A stretch of 64,000 nt of DNA from Futiania mangrovi. GTDB lineage: Bacteria; Pseudomonadota; Alphaproteobacteria; Futianiales; Futianiaceae. The DNA is taken from the NCBI RefSeq assembly GCF_024158125.1, contig NZ_JAMZFT010000002.1, positions 434,001 through 498,000 of the forward strand, read 5' to 3'. The notes under the pieces were generated by a model. The model worked only from the letters and a program-made list of their open reading frames with translations, ran no database searches and was not told the origin of the DNA. This document shows, piece by piece, positions 1-8,966 of this stretch. A program made the position numbers and the translations under genes. The stretch's first letter is position 1; the number at the start of each line of letters is the position of its first letter.

Positions 1-686
1 AGTGCGGCCTCGAACAGCGCCTGGCCCATGGCGCCCCCGCCAGCGGCCACGACGATCTCGTCCGCGCCGTCCTGCGTCTCGGGCATGCCCTCGCGTGCGA
101 CATAGCCCGTGTAGGTGAGCAGATCGCGCACCTCGGCCGCGGCCGGGTAGCTTGCCTCGAGCGGACTGATGCTCTCGACGCCATGCACCAGCACGGCGTC
201 GAAGAAGGTGCGCGCTGTCTCGATGCTCTGCTCGATCCGCAACGGCTTGGGCGAGGGAATGAGGATGTCGCGGACCGAGGAAACCAGCAGCGGCCGGGGC
301 CGCATCGCGTGGATCCGCTCCACGAAGGGTTCCAGTTCGAACCGCATCTTGTGCCGGCCGAAAGGGAAAAGCTCGGTGATGACAATGTCGGGCCGCGTTT
401 CTTCCAGCGTGTCGAGCAGCGCAGCGGTGCGCCTCTGCTTCCACGCGTCGTCGATGTCGCGGCCTTCCTCGTCGGCAAGCCCCTTGAAGTCCGCGCCCGT
501 GGCGCGCGCCGGGGGAAGCTGGACGAAGCGGGCGCAGCGTACGCCGTGGCCGACGACCGGCAGGCCGCCGGCGACGAAGGTCACCGACAGGCCGATGTCG
601 GTCATCGCTTCGGCCAGCGCCGCGGCGCGGACGTAATGCCCGGTGCCGAGCAGGTGCTGCACATAGATGAGTACGCGTCCGGTCAT
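1..686 (-). CDS. MurG-like predicted glycosyltransferase (3' end outside window)
   Basis: N-terminal 228 codons of a gene that runs off the left edge. It begins MTGRVLIYVQHLLGTGHYVR, the glycine-rich N-terminal Rossmann start of GT-B enzymes of the MurG-like 'predicted glycosyltransferase' group; a second glycine cluster (AAGGGAMGQ) near residue 220 resembles the start of the donor-binding half. It would transfer a sugar from a nucleotide donor in the cytoplasm; donor and acceptor are unknown. The ATG at 686 overlaps the stop of the phosphatase gene upstream (ATGA), so it is the last visible gene of a coupled five-gene operon. Its opening resembles that of the protein at 3727-4989, suggesting paralogues. 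Confidence 0.72.
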   Translation of the reverse strand, partial: MTGRVLIYVQHLLGTGHYVRAAALAEAMTDIGLSVTFVAGGLPVVGHGVRCARFVQLPPARATGADFKGLADEEGRDIDDAWKQRRTAALLDTLEETRPDIVITELFPFGRHKMRFELEPFVERIHAMRPRPLLVSSVRDILIPSPKPLRIEQSIETARTFFDAVLVHGVESISPLEASYPAAAEVRDLLTYTGYVAREGMPETQDGADEIVVAAGGGAMGQALFEAA

Positions 687-1297
687 GCAGGCTGCCTCGG
701 TTCCAGCGGGATATTGGCCTCGACGAGGGAGATCGCGCCATCTGCTTCCAGGCGGAAGAGATGCACCGTCCCGCGTTCCAGGCGGACAGGGGCTTTTTGC
801 GTCATGTCCCAGCCGCTCGCAAGGGCCAGCGCCGCGCGGAGGACTCCCTTGTGGGTGACGACGAAGGCTGTCGCGCGGGCTGCGCCCAGCTCAGCCAGAA
901 GTCCGGAGAGACGTCCCATCACGGCGCGCGGGCGTTCTCCGCCGGGCGGCGAGAGGTCGAGGCCGCGTGCCTCCGCAGCCTTCATCCCTTCGGGATCGGC
1001 AGCACGCAGGTCGGCAAGGCGCTTGCCCTCCCACGCGCCCCAGTCGGTCTCGATCAGGCGGGGATCGGTCTCGATATGGCCGGGCCAGAGCAGGCTTGCC
1101 GTCTCGACGGCGCGGGCCAGCGGGCTCGCAAGGCATCTCTCGGCGGCTGCGATGCGTGCCGGCAGTTGCAGAGACCGCAGCGCGGCGGTCGACGCGGGCG
1201 TCAGCGGTACGTTCTGCCGTCCCTGGATCAGGTTGCGGTCGTTCCATGCGGTCGGGTAGTGTCGCATCAGCGCGATCCAGGCGTCCCTGCCGCTCAT
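683..1297 (-). CDS. Histidine phosphatase (phosphoglycerate mutase-like) family protein
   Basis: 204 residues. The N-terminus has the RHG-family signature in altered form: LMRHYPTAWN followed by a GRQNVPLT stretch, where the usual RHGxT is RHYPT. The second catalytic His lies in VVTHKGVLRAAL near residue 165. The family removes phosphate through a phospho-His intermediate, and several members act on sugar phosphates or nucleotide-sugar precursors. It sits between glycosyltransferase genes with 4-base overlaps on both sides (ATG at 1297 overlaps the upstream stop; its stop overlaps the ATG at 686), so a role in making or trimming a phosphosugar for that locus is inferred. The substrate cannot be read from sequence. 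Confidence 0.85.
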   Translation of the reverse strand: MSGRDAWIALMRHYPTAWNDRNLIQGRQNVPLTPASTAALRSLQLPARIAAAERCLASPLARAVETASLLWPGHIETDPRLIETDWGAWEGKRLADLRAADPEGMKAAEARGLDLSPPGGERPRAVMGRLSGLLAELGAARATAFVVTHKGVLRAALALASGWDMTQKAPVRLERGTVHLFRLEADGAISLVEANIPLEPRQPA

Positions 1298-2415
1298 GCA
1301 GCTCTCCCTTCGGCGCGTGCCGCGGCGAGGCAGGCCGCGATGCATGTGTCGAGACGTTCCGCCGCGCGCGCGATGCTGCGGGTCTCCAGGATCTCCGCCC
1401 GTCCGGCTTCTGCAAGCTTCCGGCGCAGACCGGGGTTTCGGATCAACCCGGCGAGGCCTGCGGCGTAGCCGGCGTCCGTGTCCTCTGTCAGCCTGCCGGT
1501 ATGGCCGTCGGCGATGACCGCCGAAGGACCGGGTCCGGCCAGTGCGACCGGCACGGCGCCCGCCGCCTGCGCTTCCAGGTAGACCATGCCATAGGCCTCG
1601 CCCACACCCGGCCAGGCCAGCAGGTCCGCTTCCAGGTAGTACCGCGGTAGCGCTTCCGGTTCCACGGCGCGCGCGAACCGCACGCGGGCCCCGAGGTCGT
1701 CGAACAGCGCCTCGACCTGCGCGCGGGCCGGTCCGTCGCCGGCGATGGTGAGGTGCCAGTCCTCCGCACCGAGCAGCCGCAGCGCCCCGGCCAGCCGCCG
1801 GTAGCTTGCGAGCTTCGCGCCCTCCCGCATCATGCCCACGGCCAGAAGCCGGGCGGGTTCTCCCTCCGGCCGTGCGGGGCGGTCCCCCAGGAAAGGCGCG
1901 GGGTCGACGAAGGCCGGAAAGACGTGCAGCCGGTCCTCCGGCACGACGCGGCCGAGGCACGCGCTGTCGAGCGGGGTCATCGCCAGCACCGCCGCCGCCT
2001 GCCGCAGGGCGGCAATGACGGCGGTTTCGGAGGGGGTCCAATGGTCGCGGAGGCGCTTGGGCGCGTGGCTCGCCTCCGCGACGATGTAGGGGATGTCCAG
2101 CGCCCGGGCGATGGCGGGGCCGGCCAGGTCCGGCGCGCGGTAGTACAGGTGGTAGGTCAGCCATACCGCGGGCCGCGGCGTGCGCCCGGCCCTGATGTCG
2201 GCCAGCACGCGCGCCGCCTCCGCCGCACCTGCTGCGGCCATGGCGGCCTGATCGCGCGGGTTGCCGTGCCGCAGCCAGGTGCGCAGATGGCTCGGCACCG
2301 TCGCGGTATGGCCGGCGCGTGCGAGGGCGGCGAGCAGCAGCCGCGCCATGGTCCGGTCGCCCGAGGGAACCGGATGGTCCGGGGACTTCATCGGGGCATG
2401 GAAGGCGACGTGCAT
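1294..2415 (-). CDS. Group 1 (GT4-type) glycosyltransferase
   Basis: 373 residues with a GT-B fold. The C-terminal half shows the GT4 pattern: LLAVGMM opening the donor domain, IAGDGPAR, and an E-x7-E type segment (GEAYGMVYLEAQAAG) expected to hold the nucleotide-sugar. The start at 2415 (MHVAFHAPMKSPDHP) is chosen because it overlaps the upstream stop by one base (TGATG) and matches the usual N-terminal strand. The longer reading frame through 3396 runs through the neighbouring gene in another frame and is not a fusion. Likely a cytoplasmic step in surface or storage glycan assembly. Sugar specificity unknown. Confidence 0.85.
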   Translation of the reverse strand: MHVAFHAPMKSPDHPVPSGDRTMARLLLAALARAGHTATVPSHLRTWLRHGNPRDQAAMAAAGAAEAARVLADIRAGRTPRPAVWLTYHLYYRAPDLAGPAIARALDIPYIVAEASHAPKRLRDHWTPSETAVIAALRQAAAVLAMTPLDSACLGRVVPEDRLHVFPAFVDPAPFLGDRPARPEGEPARLLAVGMMREGAKLASYRRLAGALRLLGAEDWHLTIAGDGPARAQVEALFDDLGARVRFARAVEPEALPRYYLEADLLAWPGVGEAYGMVYLEAQAAGAVPVALAGPGPSAVIADGHTGRLTEDTDAGYAAGLAGLIRNPGLRRKLAEAGRAEILETRSIARAAERLDTCIAACLAAARAEGRAA

Positions 2416-3737
2416 CAGTGTCCCGCCGCGGCCCGCGCGGGCAGCGTTTCCGCGAACCGCCTCGCCAGCCGGTCGATCCCCCCCTGCATCGAGAAGTCCG
2501 TGCGCACCCGCGCCTCGCCTGCCGCGCCGAGGCGCCGGGCAAACGCCGGGTCGCCCAGCAGGCGGGCAAGCGCCGCCGAAAGCGCCTCCGGGTCGTCCGG
2601 CGGGACCAGAAGCCCCGTCTCTCCGTCGCGGACCAGTTCCGGTATGGCCGCAACCGCCGTTGCGACGACGGGCACCGCCTGGCTTTGGGCCTCCATCAGA
2701 ACATTGGGCAGGCCGTCGCGGTCGCCGTCCGGCGCGATCCGGCTCGCAAGCACGAAGACGGTGGCCTCCCGCAGGCTCGCCAGCACTTGCGCCTGCGGCT
2801 GCGCTCCGCGCCAGGTGCAGCGCTCCGCGATGCCGAGGCGCTGGACCTGCGCCTTCAGCGGCTTCAGCAGTGGCCCCCCGCCGATGTGGACGAAGCGCCA
2901 GTCGAGCCCTTCGGGCAGGCGCGCCAGCGCATCCAGTACCGTGTCGAGGCCCTTCTTGGCGACGGCGCGGCCGACGCAGACGATTGTTGGCGGCGCTGCC
3001 GGCTGCCGGTCCGGGTGCACGCCGAACCGGGTGAGGTCCAGGCCGTGATAGACGAGGTCGACCGCATCCGGCCCGGGTGCGAGTGCGCGTAGCCGCTCCG
3101 CCCCGTAGGCCGTGCAGGTCGTGCCCCAGGAGGCATCCGCAAGCTTCTCCGCGATCTCCCAGTCGGGCGTCGTCCAGATGTCCTTTGCATGGGCCGAGTA
3201 GGACCAGGTCATACCGCGCATCATGGCCGCATAGCGCGCGACGGAGGCGGGCGTATGCAGGAAATGGACGTGCAGGTGCCGCACGTCGCCGGGAAGCTCC
3301 GCTGCGAGCACGCAGGCCTGCCCGAAGCGCCGGATGCGGTTGCGGGTGCGGTCGCGTGCAAGATCGCGGCGCCATACGCTGAGCGCCTTGCGCCATCCGG
3401 GCAGATAGCCCGCGGCGGCGACGCCCCTCAGCACGCGCAACGGCTCCTCGTGCAGGTATTCGGGCAGGTAAAGGACCGGGGCCTGGATCGCCTCGTGCAC
3501 AGGGTGGATGGCGGGATCGGTCGGATGGCGCAGCGACACGATCCGCTGGTCCAGGCCGAGACGCTGCAACGCAAGGATTTCCTGCGCGATGAAGGTCTCC
3601 GACAGGCGCGGGTAGCCCTTGAGCACAACGGCGACGGCACCGCAGCCGTCGAGCCGGGGCGCGGGCATCGGCGCGGCGTTCCCGCTCGCGGCCCCGTCCG
3701 GTGCGGCTTCAGGTTTGACCGCGGCCCTACTCGCCAT
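2415..3737 (-). CDS. GT4-type glycosyltransferase, WcaL/exopolysaccharide-like
   Basis: 440 residues. After a 30-residue Pro/Ala-rich leader comes VAVVLKGYPRLSETFIAQEI, typical of the acceptor domain of exopolysaccharide GT4 enzymes (WcaL/AmsK type). The donor domain contains VCVGRAVAKKGLDTVL, VHIGGGPLLKPL and the ExxxxxxxE region around LMEAQSQAVPVVATAVAAIPELV. It adds a sugar to a lipid-linked or nascent polysaccharide at the membrane face. The N-terminus overlaps the end of the upstream gene by 11 bases and the stop overlaps the next start, indicating one translationally coupled operon. The leader could be shorter than drawn; no better RBS is visible. Confidence 0.86.
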   Translation of the reverse strand: MASRAAVKPEAAPDGAASGNAAPMPAPRLDGCGAVAVVLKGYPRLSETFIAQEILALQRLGLDQRIVSLRHPTDPAIHPVHEAIQAPVLYLPEYLHEEPLRVLRGVAAAGYLPGWRKALSVWRRDLARDRTRNRIRRFGQACVLAAELPGDVRHLHVHFLHTPASVARYAAMMRGMTWSYSAHAKDIWTTPDWEIAEKLADASWGTTCTAYGAERLRALAPGPDAVDLVYHGLDLTRFGVHPDRQPAAPPTIVCVGRAVAKKGLDTVLDALARLPEGLDWRFVHIGGGPLLKPLKAQVQRLGIAERCTWRGAQPQAQVLASLREATVFVLASRIAPDGDRDGLPNVLMEAQSQAVPVVATAVAAIPELVRDGETGLLVPPDDPEALSAALARLLGDPAFARRLGAAGEARVRTDFSMQGGIDRLARRFAETLPARAAAGH

Positions 3738-4989
3738 GGCCGGCGACCGAGCGCAGGCGTGCAGGTTTCGGACGCCGGCAGTCGAGCCAGGGTTCGATCA
3801 GGCGGTTCACGCTCTCGAAACCATCGAGCAATCCGGGCACGACGGTTTCCGACGGCCGCGGCTGATGCGGCAGCCGGGCCAGGGCCTCCGCCATTCGCGC
3901 CGGGTCGCGCTTCGGTCCGCCCGGTGTCTCCATCCGGCCCTCCAGCGGATCGACAAGCATGTCGACGAGACCCAGTTGCCGGGCCCGGTCGGCGCGGATG
4001 AACTGTTCGAGCCGTGGCGTCGTGCGCGGCACGATGAGCGCACGCTTGTCGAGGGTGAGGATCTCGCAGAACGTGTTGTAGCCGCCCATGGCCACGATCC
4101 CCACCGCATCGGCCAGCAGGTGTTCGATCCGGCTGTCGAAGGTGATCGCCTCGACATTGTCCAGCGCCTCGGCGCGGGCGAAGAACTCCTCCTGCCGGTC
4201 GGCCGCCATGAAGGGGCCCAGCACCAGCAGCGCGGGATGCGGAATCGCCGCGCCCGATTCATAGGCAGACAGGACCCAGTCGATCAGCCCCTCGCCGTCG
4301 CCGCCGCCGCCCGTGGTGACGAGCAGAAAGGGCTCGTTGGTGATCGCCGGGCGCGCCGTGGTCGAGATGTGCTCGGGCAGGGGGCGCGGAAGGTAGCCCG
4401 TGTAGACGATCCGCTGGCGCATTGCCGGCGAAAGGTTCAGGCCCTTCAGCGGCTCGTGGATCTGTGGCAGGCCATAGACCCAGATCTCGTCGTAGAAGGC
4501 TTCGAGCGCGGGAAGCGACTTCTTGCGCTCCCATTCCGGTGCGAGTACCGCAGGCTCGTCCAGCACATCGCGCACGCCGAGAACGATATGGGTGCCCCGC
4601 GCCTTCAGAAGCTTGAGCGTCGGCTCGACCTCGCCGCGCAGGCCGAGCGGTTCCTTGTCGACGATGAAGACGTCTGGGTCGAACACGTCCGCCGTGTGCT
4701 CGATGATCGACTGGCGCAGTGCCACCGTCTCGTCGATGTCGAGATGCAGCGACAGCGAGGTGTATTCGCCGTTCCTGAGCTTGATGACGCCGGGGATCCG
4801 CACGAAGTCGACGCGCGCGCGGAAATCGAAGCTGCCGATGATGGGGGAACCGGACAGGATCAGGACGGAGAGATTCTTGTGCCGCGAGACGAGGTCGTGC
4901 GCAATCGCACGGCACCGGCGCAGATGACCGAGGCCGAACGTGTCATGGCTGTAGATCAGTACACGCGACCCGGTTTCGGCCGAGGGCAT
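3727..4989 (-). CDS. MurG-like predicted glycosyltransferase
   Basis: 420 residues. It opens with RVLIYSHDTFGLGHLRRCRA, the GxGHxxR signature of MurG-like glycosyltransferases, and has a second glycine-rich donor loop (LLVTTGGGGDGEGL) near residue 215 and an AMGGYNTFCEIL segment near residue 300, the 'GGxNT' sugar-nucleotide element of this superfamily. First gene of the five-gene minus-strand operon. The ATG at 4989 follows a strong SD (GGGGGAGAG) by a few bases. It is divergent from the ABC exporter gene, with about 145 bases between the starts. The stop is TAG in a TAG-GGC context that recurs in this window. Confidence 0.85.
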   Translation of the reverse strand: MPSAETGSRVLIYSHDTFGLGHLRRCRAIAHDLVSRHKNLSVLILSGSPIIGSFDFRARVDFVRIPGVIKLRNGEYTSLSLHLDIDETVALRQSIIEHTADVFDPDVFIVDKEPLGLRGEVEPTLKLLKARGTHIVLGVRDVLDEPAVLAPEWERKKSLPALEAFYDEIWVYGLPQIHEPLKGLNLSPAMRQRIVYTGYLPRPLPEHISTTARPAITNEPFLLVTTGGGGDGEGLIDWVLSAYESGAAIPHPALLVLGPFMAADRQEEFFARAEALDNVEAITFDSRIEHLLADAVGIVAMGGYNTFCEILTLDKRALIVPRTTPRLEQFIRADRARQLGLVDMLVDPLEGRMETPGGPKRDPARMAEALARLPHQPRPSETVVPGLLDGFESVNRLIEPWLDCRRPKPARLRSVAGHGE

Positions 4990-5133
4990 ATCTCTCCCCC
5001 AAGGATTGCCTTGGCTCTCTTTGATCGTACTATGGCACGCTTGGCATTGCGGATTCCATAGGTTCGCTCTGGTCCGCGTGTGCGAAGCATGGTTTTCTCG
5101 GCCGAGCGACCGGGGCGAGGGCAGCGCACGGCA

Positions 5134-7911
5134 ATGGACGCCAACCTTTTCAGATATATCTGGCGCCATTCGCGGCTCGACCAGCTCGCCGTCCTCGTCC
5201 TCGTCCTCGTTTCGCTGCCCTTTTATTTCATTTCCCTCGACCTCCCCCGAAACATCGTCAACGAAGCGATCCAGGGCCAGGGTTTCGGTCCGAACGATCC
5301 GACGCAACCCTTCCTGTCGCTGTCATTGCCGCTGCCCGAGGCGCTGGGCGGGACGATCCAGCTGTTCGAGGGCGTTCCGCTGGAGCGCATGCCCTACCTC
5401 TTTGCGCTGAGCGGCATGTTCCTGCTGATGGTCTGCGTCAACGGCTGGTTCAAGTACCGCATCAACACGCACAAGGGCCGGATGGGCGAGCGGATGCTGC
5501 GCCGACTGCGCTTCGACCTGTTCGACCGTATCCTGCGCTTTCCGACCCCGCATTTCCGGAAGGTGAAGCAGGCCGAGCTCGCCACCATGATCAAGGACGA
5601 GGTGGAGCCGCTCGGCGGCTTCATCGGCGAGGCGTTCGCCCAGCCCATCTTCCAGGGCGGCATGGCGCTGACCGGAATGACCTTCATCCTTCTTCAGAGC
5701 TTCTGGCTGGGCCTGGTCGCGGCTGCCATCGTCGGCATCCAGGCCTTCATCATTCCGCGTCTGCGGGCCCCTATCCGCATGCTGGGCCGCCAGCGGCAGC
5801 TTGAGACGCGCCACCTCGCAGGCCGCATCGCGGAGATCGTCGACGGTGTCGTCGAGGTGCACACGAACGATACGTCCGCCTGGGAGCGGGCGGAGATCAC
5901 GCACCGGCTGGGGCGCATCTTCTGGATCCGCTACGAGATCTACCAGCGCAAGTTCTTCGTGAAGTTCCTCAACAACTTCCTGGCGCAGGTCACGCCCTTC
6001 CTGTTCTACGCGATCGGCGGCTATTTCGCGATCCGCGGTCAGCTCGACGTCGGCCAGCTCGTCGCGGTTCTCGTCGCCTACAAGGACTTGCCGCCGCCGA
6101 TCAAGGAGCTGATCGACTGGGACCAGCAGCGCCTCGACAGCCAGGTCAAGTACGAGCAGGTGGTCGAGCAGTTCGACGCCGCCATCGCCGACGCAGAGCT
6201 TCAGGATCCGTCGCGCCAGCGCGACACGCCGCTCGAAGGTCATGTCACCCTGACCCGCGTGACCGCGGCGGACGATTCGATGGACAAGGTGCTCGACGGC
6301 ATCTCCGTCGATCTGCCGCTCGATGCGGCCGTGGCCGTCGTGGGGACGGGCTCCGGTCCCCGCGCGTTCGCACAGGCCGTCGTCCGGCTTCAGCCGCTGC
6401 TGTCCGGCCACATCGAGATCGCGGGCGAGCCGCTTGCCCGCCTGCCCGAAGCCGTGCTCGGCCGCCGCGTCGCGTATGTCGCGCAGGACGCCTTCCTGTT
6501 TCCGGGGACGCTCCGCGACAATCTGCTCTACGCGCTGCGTCACCGGTTCCTCGGCGCCGAGCCTCCGAGTCACGAATGGAAGGCGGAGAAGGCCGAGGCG
6601 CGCCGGGCCGGCAATGCGCCCCTGCCGGTCGAGGGCGACTGGATCGACCTTGCCGAGGCCGGCGTCGACAGCATGGATGCGCTGACCGACCGGATCGTCG
6701 AGGTTCTGCAGACCGTCCAGATCGAGGCGGAGGTGTACCAGCTCGGGCTTCGCGGGCGACTGGAGGGCCGGCTGCAGGAGGATGCCGCCGAGGCGATCCT
6801 GCGCGTGCGGGCCGAGGTGCGGGCCGCCATCGATGCGGACGAGCGGCTGCGCGGGCTGGTCGAGCCATTCGATCCGGCGCGCTACACGCGCAACGCCACG
6901 ATTGCGGAGAACCTTCTGTTCGGCGTGACACGCGACGCCGCCTTTGCACGCGGCGAGGACATCGACGTGCCGGAAGCGGCGGCGCTGCCCGGCAACCGCT
7001 ATCTCCTGTCCGCCCTGCGCGCGCAAGGCCTGGAGGACGATCTGGTCCGCGTGGGCGAGCGGATCGCCGAAACCATGGTCGAGATCTTTGCCGGCCTGCC
7101 GCCGGGCGATCCCTTCTTCGAGCAGTTCAGCTTCATCGCCGCCGAGGATCTCCCGGTATTCGAGCAGATCCTGGTGCGCGTGCGCCGCGACGGCATGGCG
7201 AGCCTGCCCGAGGAATCGCGCCTGCGCCTGCTGTTCCTGTCTTTCGATTATATCGAGCCGCGCCACCGCCTCGGCCTGCTCGACGACGACCTGCGCGGCC
7301 GCATCGTCAGGGCGCGCCACGCAGTGCACGCCGAGTTGCCCGAGGACCTGCGCGGCGCGATCGAGGTCTACGACCCCGACCGCTATACCCAGGCTGCGAG
7401 CCTGATGGACAACATCCTGTTCGGGCGCGTCACGCACGGGCAGAGCGAGGCGCGGCCGCGCATCGATGCACTCGTTTCCGAGATACTGGAGCGGGAAGGT
7501 GTCCGCCGGATCATCGTGGAGGCGGGGCTGGAGACGGAGGCAGGCTACGGCGGCCGCCGCCTGCCCGCCCACCAGCGCCAGCGGCTCGCGCTGGCCCGCG
7601 CCCTGCTCCGCCAGCCCGATCTTCTGATCGTGGACGATGCGCTGGCGGTGGTCGACGCGCGTGTCGAGCGGGAGATCCTGCGGAATGTTCTCGAGTCCCG
7701 AAAGGGCAGGGGTACCATCGTCGTGCTCGGGCGTGTCGATCGCGTGCGGCTGTTCGACCTCGCGCTCGTGTTCGATGGATGCGACCTGGCCGCCTGCGGG
7801 CCGGTGGACGCGCTTGCCGCGGAAGGGCCTCTTGCAACGCTGCTTGGGGGCCGCGGGAGCCAGGAGGAGAGTGACCCAGTGAGTGAGGAGGCAGCCGATG
7901 AGTCTCAATGA
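5134..7911 (+). CDS. ABC exporter with degenerate, greatly expanded nucleotide-binding domain
   Basis: 925 residues; typical half-exporters have about 600. Residues 1-350 look like a type IV exporter membrane domain: six hydrophobic helices and the usual coupling-helix spacing. The NBD is abnormal. The Walker A position reads G404-TGSGPR, so the Lys is Pro409. The Q-loop is intact (VAQDAFLFPGTLRDN). The signature LSGGQ is replaced by LPAHQ (810-814). Walker B is LLIVDD with the catalytic Glu as Asp835. The switch His is missing (VVLGRVDR). Between Q-loop and signature, where about 50 residues are normal, lie about 340 residues with two further copies of the post-Q-loop motif (583-598 and 750-764). 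ATP hydrolysis is therefore doubtful. It overlaps the cNMP-binding gene by 14 bases. The start is chosen at MDANLF; GTG 5080 or ATG 5089 are alternatives. Confidence 0.88.
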   Translation: MDANLFRYIWRHSRLDQLAVLVLVLVSLPFYFISLDLPRNIVNEAIQGQGFGPNDPTQPFLSLSLPLPEALGGTIQLFEGVPLERMPYLFALSGMFLLMVCVNGWFKYRINTHKGRMGERMLRRLRFDLFDRILRFPTPHFRKVKQAELATMIKDEVEPLGGFIGEAFAQPIFQGGMALTGMTFILLQSFWLGLVAAAIVGIQAFIIPRLRAPIRMLGRQRQLETRHLAGRIAEIVDGVVEVHTNDTSAWERAEITHRLGRIFWIRYEIYQRKFFVKFLNNFLAQVTPFLFYAIGGYFAIRGQLDVGQLVAVLVAYKDLPPPIKELIDWDQQRLDSQVKYEQVVEQFDAAIADAELQDPSRQRDTPLEGHVTLTRVTAADDSMDKVLDGISVDLPLDAAVAVVGTGSGPRAFAQAVVRLQPLLSGHIEIAGEPLARLPEAVLGRRVAYVAQDAFLFPGTLRDNLLYALRHRFLGAEPPSHEWKAEKAEARRAGNAPLPVEGDWIDLAEAGVDSMDALTDRIVEVLQTVQIEAEVYQLGLRGRLEGRLQEDAAEAILRVRAEVRAAIDADERLRGLVEPFDPARYTRNATIAENLLFGVTRDAAFARGEDIDVPEAAALPGNRYLLSALRAQGLEDDLVRVGERIAETMVEIFAGLPPGDPFFEQFSFIAAEDLPVFEQILVRVRRDGMASLPEESRLRLLFLSFDYIEPRHRLGLLDDDLRGRIVRARHAVHAELPEDLRGAIEVYDPDRYTQAASLMDNILFGRVTHGQSEARPRIDALVSEILEREGVRRIIVEAGLETEAGYGGRRLPAHQRQRLALARALLRQPDLLIVDDALAVVDARVEREILRNVLESRKGRGTIVVLGRVDRVRLFDLALVFDGCDLAACGPVDALAAEGPLATLLGGRGSQEESDPVSEEAADESQ

Positions 7912-8365
7912 AGAGGTTGAAATCCTCAAGAAGATCCCGCTCTTCCAGAATTTCGAGCCCGCCAAGCTCAAGCTGCTGGCATTTGCCAGCGAGCGCATAC
8001 ATTTCGAGGCGGGTCAGACCGTTTGCCGGCAGGGCGATCCGGGGGATGCTGCCTATGTCATCATCTCGGGCGAGGCAGACATCCTCGTCGACGGGCCCGA
8101 CGGGCCGATCCAGGTGGCCACCGTCCGCGATCACGGCTTCATCGGCGAGATAGCGATCCTGATCGACGTGCCCCGGACTGCGACAATCCGCGCGCATACG
8201 GAGCTTGTGGCACTGCAGATCAAGAAGGATCTTTTCTTTAGGATGGTGCGCGAATATCCGGGTGTCGCGGTCGAGGTCATGCGCGAACTTGCCCAGCGGC
8301 TCGAGCGCACGACCTCCGAGCTTACCCGCGTGCGTGGAGAGTTGAACCGGCTGACGGCAAACTGA
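7898..8365 (+). CDS. Cyclic nucleotide-binding domain protein without DNA-binding domain
   Basis: 155 residues comprising a single CNB domain. The phosphate-binding cassette reads GEIAILIDVPRTATIRA (residues 83-99); the Arg that contacts the cyclic phosphate (Arg93) is present, so cAMP or cGMP binding is plausible. After the domain there is only a short helical tail (residues 125-155, Leu/Arg/Glu-rich, coiled-coil-like) and no HTH, so it is not a Crp-type repressor or activator. ATG 7898 follows GAGGAG by 6 bases and lies inside the end of the ABC exporter gene, implying coupled synthesis. Inference: a regulatory subunit or partner of that exporter. Confidence 0.88.
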   Translation: MSLNEEVEILKKIPLFQNFEPAKLKLLAFASERIHFEAGQTVCRQGDPGDAAYVIISGEADILVDGPDGPIQVATVRDHGFIGEIAILIDVPRTATIRAHTELVALQIKKDLFFRMVREYPGVAVEVMRELAQRLERTTSELTRVRGELNRLTAN

Positions 8366-8405: not shown

Positions 8406-8966
8406 ATGCGTCGTCTTGCACACAATCTGATTGCGACGGCTGCAATCTTCGGGGCGCTTGCCGCGGTTCCGGTAAGCATGGCGGTGCCCGCCATTGCCCA
8501 CGACTACACCGCCGGAACGCTGATGATCGACCATCCCTGGGCCCGTCCGGCCATTCCGAACCGCCCCGGCGTGGTGTTCCTGACCGTCAAGAATACCGGC
8601 GAGACGGCAGACCGCCTGATCGCGGCCAGCACGCCGGTTGCCGGAACCGTCGAGATTCACACGCACATCAAGGACGGCGACGTGATGCGCATGGTGCGGA
8701 TCGAGGGGATCGACGTTCCTGCGGGCGGCATGGCTATGCTGCAGCCGGGTGGCGATCACCTGATGCTGTTCGACATCCCGGCGCCCTATGCCGTGGGCGA
8801 CAGTTTCCCGATGACGCTGACCTTCGAGAAGGCCGGCGACGTCGCGGTCGAGGTGCAGGTCGAGATGGGCCAGGATGGTGCCGGCCACTCGATGCACAAC
8901 ATGCCGGCCCACGGCGGCCATGGTCAGGGCCACGGTGCGGCGAAGATGCCGATGAAGACGAACTGA
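8406..8966 (+). CDS. PCu(A)C copper chaperone, periplasmic
   Basis: 186 residues. A Sec signal peptide ends around Ala31 (AVPAIA/H). The mature part holds the copper motif exactly as known for PCuAC proteins: H85-x10-M96-x21-H118-x-M120. The C-terminus carries an extra His/Met-rich tail (HSMHNMPAHGGHGQGHG), which should add Cu binding sites. The family delivers Cu(I) to the CuA/CuB centres of cytochrome c oxidase in the periplasm, often with Sco. No Sco or oxidase gene is adjacent. The ATG at 8406 has a good SD (GAGGAG, 9 bases upstream). Confidence 0.93.
   Translation: MRRLAHNLIATAAIFGALAAVPVSMAVPAIAHDYTAGTLMIDHPWARPAIPNRPGVVFLTVKNTGETADRLIAASTPVAGTVEIHTHIKDGDVMRMVRIEGIDVPAGGMAMLQPGGDHLMLFDIPAPYAVGDSFPMTLTFEKAGDVAVEVQVEMGQDGAGHSMHNMPAHGGHGQGHGAAKMPMKTN

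Follow-up and report, generated by a model that had tools for sequence, protein, structure and literature searches.

How can a protein with the architecture of an ABC exporter persist when all its catalytic motifs deviate from the consensus, and what could it do in that state? The question is raised by an open reading frame of Futiania mangrovi in the window studied here, by which we mean the whole analysed stretch of 64,000 nucleotides. In Pfam, the window protein combines PF00664 (E 3.2e-15) and PF00005 (E 8.7e-11, best match at residues 387-487) in one chain, and therefore belongs to the ABC exporter superfamily as defined by a PF00664 transmembrane domain (TMD) plus a PF00005-type NBD. The relevant features are as follows, those within the NBD being placed by alignment.

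5134..7911, + strand: coding sequence of the degenerate ABC half-exporter, 925 aa (ORF call; start shared with homologues)
5134..6183, + strand: transmembrane domain, residues 1-350 (PF00664 at residues 89-314)
6271..6273, + strand: A-loop position D380, a Tyr in normal exporters
6343..6363, + strand: degenerate Walker A GTGSGPR, residues 404-410
6484..6486, + strand: Q-loop Q451, present
7561..7575, + strand: degenerate signature LPAHQ, residues 810-814
7618..7638, + strand: Walker B DLLIVDD, residues 829-835, with D835 in place of the catalytic Glu
7717..7737, + strand: switch region IVVLGRV, residues 862-868, with G866 in place of the His

Because the homologues start at the same Met, the upstream GTG at 5080 is unnecessary. 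At the equivalent alignment columns, three normal half-exporters of the same genome carry Tyr, GKS, LSGGQ or LSGGE, DE and H; thus, of the four hallmarks of an ATP-driven exporter (Walker A GK[ST], LSGGQ, Walker B D-E and the switch His), these exporters have all four and the window protein has none. A preliminary description of this DNA had listed a Walker A lacking Lys, an LPAHQ signature, a Walker B Asp and a missing switch His, and each was found again at the residue level.

The window protein belongs to a widespread family, for which no description was found in the open-access literature. Scanning genome contigs yielded 80 full-length relatives, 45-51% identical, from Rhizobium, Mesorhizobium, Reyranella, Kiloniellales and others; 333 plasmid records hold a member, and by profile search the family is present, mostly as a single copy, in 146 of 387 alphaproteobacterial genomes (90 of 264 genera). 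Its range outside the Alphaproteobacteria is uncertain: the contig-scan matches include records with beta- and gammaproteobacterial names, among them the isolate Plasticicumulans lactativorans, whereas matches in the phylum draw were confined to Alphaproteobacteria, the class of the window. Several genomes (G139, G289, G699 and G722) carry two or three full-length members (L146, L147, L148, L149 and further copies), and the copies looked at in G139 and G289 have a fused cNMP domain and a still more eroded Walker A. In Sinorhizobium meliloti 1021, the pSymB member (L111, record 841723-844123) has a shortened frame owing to a one-base length difference from other S. meliloti strains, which is either a strain-specific frameshift or a sequencing error.

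The family alignment, thinned at 80% identity, comprises 99 members, and loss of the ATP site extends through all of it. The SGG signature occurs in none of the 99 and GK[ST] in two; in 81 members, not one of the four motifs (Walker A, signature, Walker B DE, H) is intact, and at most two are intact in any member. An Asp takes the place of the A-loop Tyr in 82/99 and a Glu in 10/99. The Q-loop, earlier described as normal, is so in the window protein (Q451), but its Gln is present in merely 19 of the 99 members.

The overall fold, by contrast with these motifs, is predicted to be complete. AlphaFold2 modelled the whole protein confidently (pLDDT 87.8, pTM 0.84), and the NBD core superposed on 237 of the 239 residues of the ComA NBD at 2.1 A (Z 29.3), in an alignment that spans 365-905. 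Since the model covers nearly all of the ComA NBD, the NBD fold appears complete and the inserted sequence additional. Structure prediction of the NBD, which the preliminary description had suggested as a check, thus yielded a complete ABC exporter; at the coupling positions, the model also has short helices (138-142 and 239-244), and its best structural matches include TM287/288 and TmrAB.

The insertion itself is real. From the Q-loop to the signature, the normal exporters of the genome have 57 residues and the window protein 360, a net gain of about 303, which makes the earlier figure of about 340 slightly too high. The three NLLFG-like motifs previously placed at about 458, 590 and 755 were recovered, starting at 458, 589 and 756. 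The expanded region is laid out as follows.

6505..6531, + strand: motif 1, GTLRDNLLY, residues 458-466, at the canonical post-Q-loop position (87/99 members)
6544..7395, + strand: expanded region of the NBD helical subdomain, residues 471-754 (model, hhalign, alignment)
6727..6930, + strand: repeat block A, residues 532-599, ending in motif 2 (hhalign)
6898..6924, + strand: motif 2, TIAENLLFG, residues 589-597 (99/99 members; alignment)
7255..7431, + strand: repeat block B, residues 708-766, ending in motif 3 (hhalign)
7399..7425, + strand: motif 3, SLMDNILFG, residues 756-764 (96/99 members; alignment)

Blocks A and B matched each other in hhalign with 98.4% probability (E 8.5e-15), and the short helix segments flanking them cross-matched weakly. 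The layout is that of an NLLFG motif followed by a VLxxxxLxxxxxxxGL helix pair, present three times, with the last copy entering the normal signature helix. The insert alone folded confidently (pLDDT 88.7); it had no confident match to known structures in Foldseek, and its top VIA matches were the helical subdomains of CFTR NBD1, MsRv1273c/72c and IrtA, at Z no higher than 4.8. The insert therefore reads as a probable partial tandem duplication of the NBD helical subdomain, a reading that, with structural matches this weak, draws mainly on the hhalign sequence repeat. No Walker-type motif set indicating a second intact ATP site was seen in the expanded domain.

What selection has preserved in this family can be read from the column entropies of the 99-member alignment. 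The TMD (1.52 bits), the TM6-linker (1.06) and motifs 1, 2 and 3 (1.55, 1.32 and 1.49) are conserved above the catalytic motifs, as Walker A (1.95), the signature (2.08), Walker B (1.89) and the H-loop (2.38) lie at about the level of the remaining NBD, which argues for selection on the TMD and the expanded region rather than on catalysis. The catalytic residues drift at background level while the three NLLFG motifs are retained. In other ABC exporters, the NBDs are the most conserved region (PMC7756269). Here it is the membrane domain, above all residues 101-180 and 281-340 (TM6 and linker); the window TMD is 34-65% identical to family TMDs, paralogues lacking the NBD included, and keeps 57-65% identity to distant species, and its conserved acids in the alignment include E119, E156, E158 and E234. 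The preliminary description had asked whether motif loss is fixed in the clade; it is, as the same losses and the same three motifs are found in 99 members less than 80% identical to one another, a recurrence that, as judged from the alignment, is far beyond chance.

The membrane domain also occurs on its own. Proteins of 350-430 aa with the same membrane domain and no NBD are encoded on Phaeobacter and Azospirillum plasmids and in other genomes, the TMD identity for two of them being 34 and 39%. Of the five examined, four adjoin copper-resistance genes, with multicopper oxidase, cupredoxin or cytochrome c genes as neighbours, and may represent a separate uncharacterised transporter.

L100:7773-9032: NBD-less paralogue in a copper operon
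L101:7773-9077: NBD-less paralogue in a copper operon
L203:6540-7781: NBD-less paralogue in a copper operon
L206:5561-6340: NBD-less paralogue in a copper operon, cut by the contig end

The exception, L205:6068-7111, is an NBD-less protein of 347 aa with no copper context, whose genome encodes a full-length member as well. When 241 genomes were searched with a TMD profile (E 1e-45 or better), nearly all matching ORFs measured 870-1130 aa, the short ones being NBD-less or else broken or contig-cut family members (G157, G127, G187), and no intact normal exporter of about 600 aa with the same TMD was seen at that threshold.

What is new here is that the family is linked or fused almost throughout to a cNMP-binding protein. 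In the window, this gene overlaps the exporter stop by 14 nt.

7898..8365, + strand: cNMP-binding protein, PF00027 at E 5.1e-20 (Pfam)

Its phosphate-binding cassette, GEIAIL...RTA, is intact and was invariant in the four homologues compared, so the window partner has both PF00027 and the cassette (GE...R[ST]A) that define a CRP-type cNMP domain. Linkage was counted over 69 non-redundant loci with enough sequence, against 20 random 16-kb loci from related genomes. A cNMP gene lies directly downstream on the same strand in 56 loci and is fused to the exporter C-terminus in 11, giving 67/69 as compared with 0/20 random loci (Fisher p 6e-18); in the remaining two (L179 and L181) none was detectable nearby. 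The fusions were confirmed by Pfam in L017, L019, L102 and L148, and the fused proteins group in one clade, which has 13 members and support 1.0. Such conserved linkage and fusion point to a regulated exporter-cNMP complex. With the cassette intact, the capacity to bind a ligand appears to have been kept in the partner while the exporter lost its catalytic capacity. The ligand need not be a cyclic nucleotide, because the cNMP-fold domain of HetC binds ppGpp (PMC10986499).

Upstream of the exporter, the window holds a run of genes on the opposite strand, most of them encoding glycosyltransferases.

3727..4947, - strand: divergent glycosyltransferase with a weak PF04101 match (GT28 C-terminal) below the curated cut-off (Pfam)
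2415..3737, - strand: glycosyltransferase family 4 (GT4), PF00534 (Pfam)
1294..2430, - strand: glycosyltransferase family 4, PF00534 (Pfam)
683..1288, - strand: histidine phosphatase, PF00300 (Pfam)
1..686, - strand: glycosyltransferase with PF04101, running past the window edge (Pfam)
L110:10757-11515: polysaccharide-deacetylase-like gene, outside the window after the glycosyltransferase at 1..686

An importer and a cyclase also lie beyond the window edge. Among 56 large loci, GT4 genes are near the exporter in 31, as against 0/20 controls (p 3e-6), and histidine phosphatase and deacetylase genes in 15 each (p 0.008). Related gene sets, which include a nucleotide-sugar dehydrogenase, deacetylase or polysaccharide lyase, occur at the Sulfitobacter dubius, R. 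etli, Mesorhizobium and S. meliloti loci. Recognisable glycosyltransferases are missing from about half of the loci, and therefore a glycan substrate would not be general. Lipid-linked glycan flippases of the PglK or MsbA type combine a glycan operon context with flipping activity; here, the glycosyltransferase context was seen at about half of the loci. An association with a cyclase or an importer ATPase looked attractive in the annotated loci and was dropped after the control comparison, since a cyclase is nearby in 14/56 loci versus 2/20 controls (p 0.21, not significant) and linkage of the importer ATPase was likewise not significant against control loci. An oligopeptide-type (Yej-like) ABC importer does lie beside the glycosyltransferases in several loci (L110:4139-10785, L112:3378-9340), with a p of 0.015 for linkage of the importer permease; this placement suggests the re-uptake of a product or fragment. 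In the window, the gene after the cNMP gene encodes a copper chaperone, PCu(A)C (8406-8966), and recalls the copper context of the NBD-less paralogues; it is found at just 2/69 loci and is thus probably coincidental. The cNMP partner and its fusions, the glycosyltransferase context, the NBD-less paralogues and the helical-subdomain origin of the insert had all escaped the preliminary description.

Based on these observations, we tentatively favour, at somewhat short of even confidence, an ATP-independent, signal-gated transporter or flippase of the exporter fold, with a cNMP sensor on the pseudo-NBD and probably a glycan substrate. This membrane protein would have the fold of a type IV ABC exporter, would most likely form a homodimer, and would have abandoned the use of ATP while retaining the membrane domain and a complete, catalytically dead NBD. 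The partly duplicated helical subdomain of the NBD would provide an enlarged docking surface, the adjacent or fused cNMP protein would most likely bind to the pseudo-NBD, and upon a nucleotide signal it could set the conformation of the membrane domain. The result would be a gated transporter or flippase that works independently of ATP, by facilitated or ion-coupled transport, and whose substrate, where the neighbouring glycosyltransferases occur, would probably be an envelope glycan or glycolipid intermediate made by them. The homodimer, the cNMP gating, the lack of ATPase activity, the ligand, the substrate and the energy source are what we infer. The degenerate sites of other exporters still bind ATP (PMC7756269), which counts against an ATP-free reading. 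It is possible, although doubtful, that a new transporter class is represented here, namely an ATP-independent, second-messenger-gated flippase or channel in which the pseudo-NBD, made larger by duplication of its helical subdomain, is the docking and gating unit for the cNMP sensor, with a side branch that has lost the NBD.

Alternatively, the protein might transport nothing and act as a scaffold or receptor, organising a membrane glycan-synthesis complex or passing a signal from the periplasm or the membrane on to the cNMP protein. The dead ATP site of every member, the enlarged interaction surface, the near-obligate soluble cNMP partner and the glycosyltransferase neighbours would all agree with such a role, which we nevertheless consider less likely, because the TMD, notably residues 101-180 and 281-340, is the most conserved part and because it occurs alone in copper operons, with neither NBD nor cNMP protein; its survival there suggests that the membrane part itself has a job.

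It is improbable that the family supplies one half of a heterodimeric exporter, with the normal half encoded elsewhere in the genome in the manner of TAP1/2 or TM287/288. Degenerate NBDs are indeed normal in heterodimeric exporters (PMC7756269), TM287/288 and TmrAB resemble the model, and the genome encodes other half-exporters. However, a half-exporter is nearby in only 1/69 loci versus 1/20 control loci, so that no complementary half is found at the locus. Moreover, one and the same chain carries defects in both Walker A/B and the signature, as a consequence of which neither composite site would be complete even with a normal partner, and a homodimer would have no complete ATP site. In described heterodimers, by contrast, the losses are distributed in a way that preserves one consensus site. 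The earlier proposal of a regulated, ATP-independent or partner-dependent flippase or scaffold therefore survives in part: the clade-wide loss of the ATP site and the highly conserved membrane domain fit it, and dependence on a half-exporter partner does not hold up.

A non-canonical but active NTPase, with a new nucleotide site formed by a GK[DE] Walker A, an NE Walker B and the A-loop Asp, is quite improbable. The Walker A Lys is kept in 43/99 members, a Glu follows at Walker B +1 in 33/99, the D-loop Asp is present in 90/99 and the A-loop acid is strongly conserved; against this, the SGG signature is absent from all 99, the Mg-binding S/T has become an acid in most members, the catalytic motifs vary as much as the background, and the window protein has neither the Lys nor the Glu. 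Finally, a decaying pseudogene or a sequencing error, which the deviation of all catalytic motifs might suggest, is refuted by conservation and has practically no likelihood left, as the 99 non-redundant homologues are intact, the same deviations and expansion occur in intact ORFs across 90/264 genera and 333 plasmid records, and the TMD is 57-65% identical to that of distant species.

Compared with known systems, the family resembles the type IV half-exporters (MsbA, TM287/288, TmrAB and ComA/PCAT) in its six-TM TMD with coupling helices and its NBD fold (Z 27-29), and differs in that no intact ATP-site set is found in 99 members and, for the window protein, in the Q-loop-signature distance of 360 instead of 57 residues and in the helical-subdomain repeat. 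SbmA/BacA, a SLiPT, has a proton-driven ABC-type TMD and was proposed to descend from an ABC exporter that lost its NBD (PMC13316013). The window family would share with it an ABC-exporter-type TMD working without ATP. However, SLiPTs are defined by a TMD with neither coupling helices nor an NBD (PMC13316013), whereas the window family is predicted to keep coupling helices and a folded pseudo-NBD and so falls outside this definition; the window protein has no SLiPT match in Pfam, and only the NBD-less paralogues are architecturally similar. A further SLiPT trait is proton-coupled transport through a glutamate ladder, of which no conserved form was demonstrated in the window family. A cNMP-fold sensor joined to an exporter is also known from HetC/PCAT, and in HetC this domain is required for function and the ATPase is essential (PMC10986499). 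HetC, however, has an N-terminal cNMP domain and a peptidase, while the window family has a C-terminal or separate cNMP domain, no peptidase and a presumably dead ATPase. As in CFTR, SUR (ABCC) and TAP, a degenerate NBD may be used for regulation rather than turnover, but those proteins bind ATP and retain some or all of a second site, whereas the half-size window chain has lost both half-sites.

Heterodimeric and full-length exporters often have a degenerate site, with the deviations distributed across both of the NBDs that form it (PMC7756269), and such a site is known mainly as one of two. The family described here, present in about 38% of the sampled alphaproteobacterial genomes, rhizobia included, is directly testable through its S. 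meliloti and Rhizobium etli members, and the name ABC transporter ATP-binding protein that annotation pipelines give to its members is probably wrong. Together with its NBD-less paralogues, it might hold possible intermediates on the route proposed for SbmA/BacA, from ABC exporter to secondary transporter. If the favoured, ATP-independent and signal-gated reading is true, the exporter architecture could be uncoupled from ATP and re-coupled to a signal.
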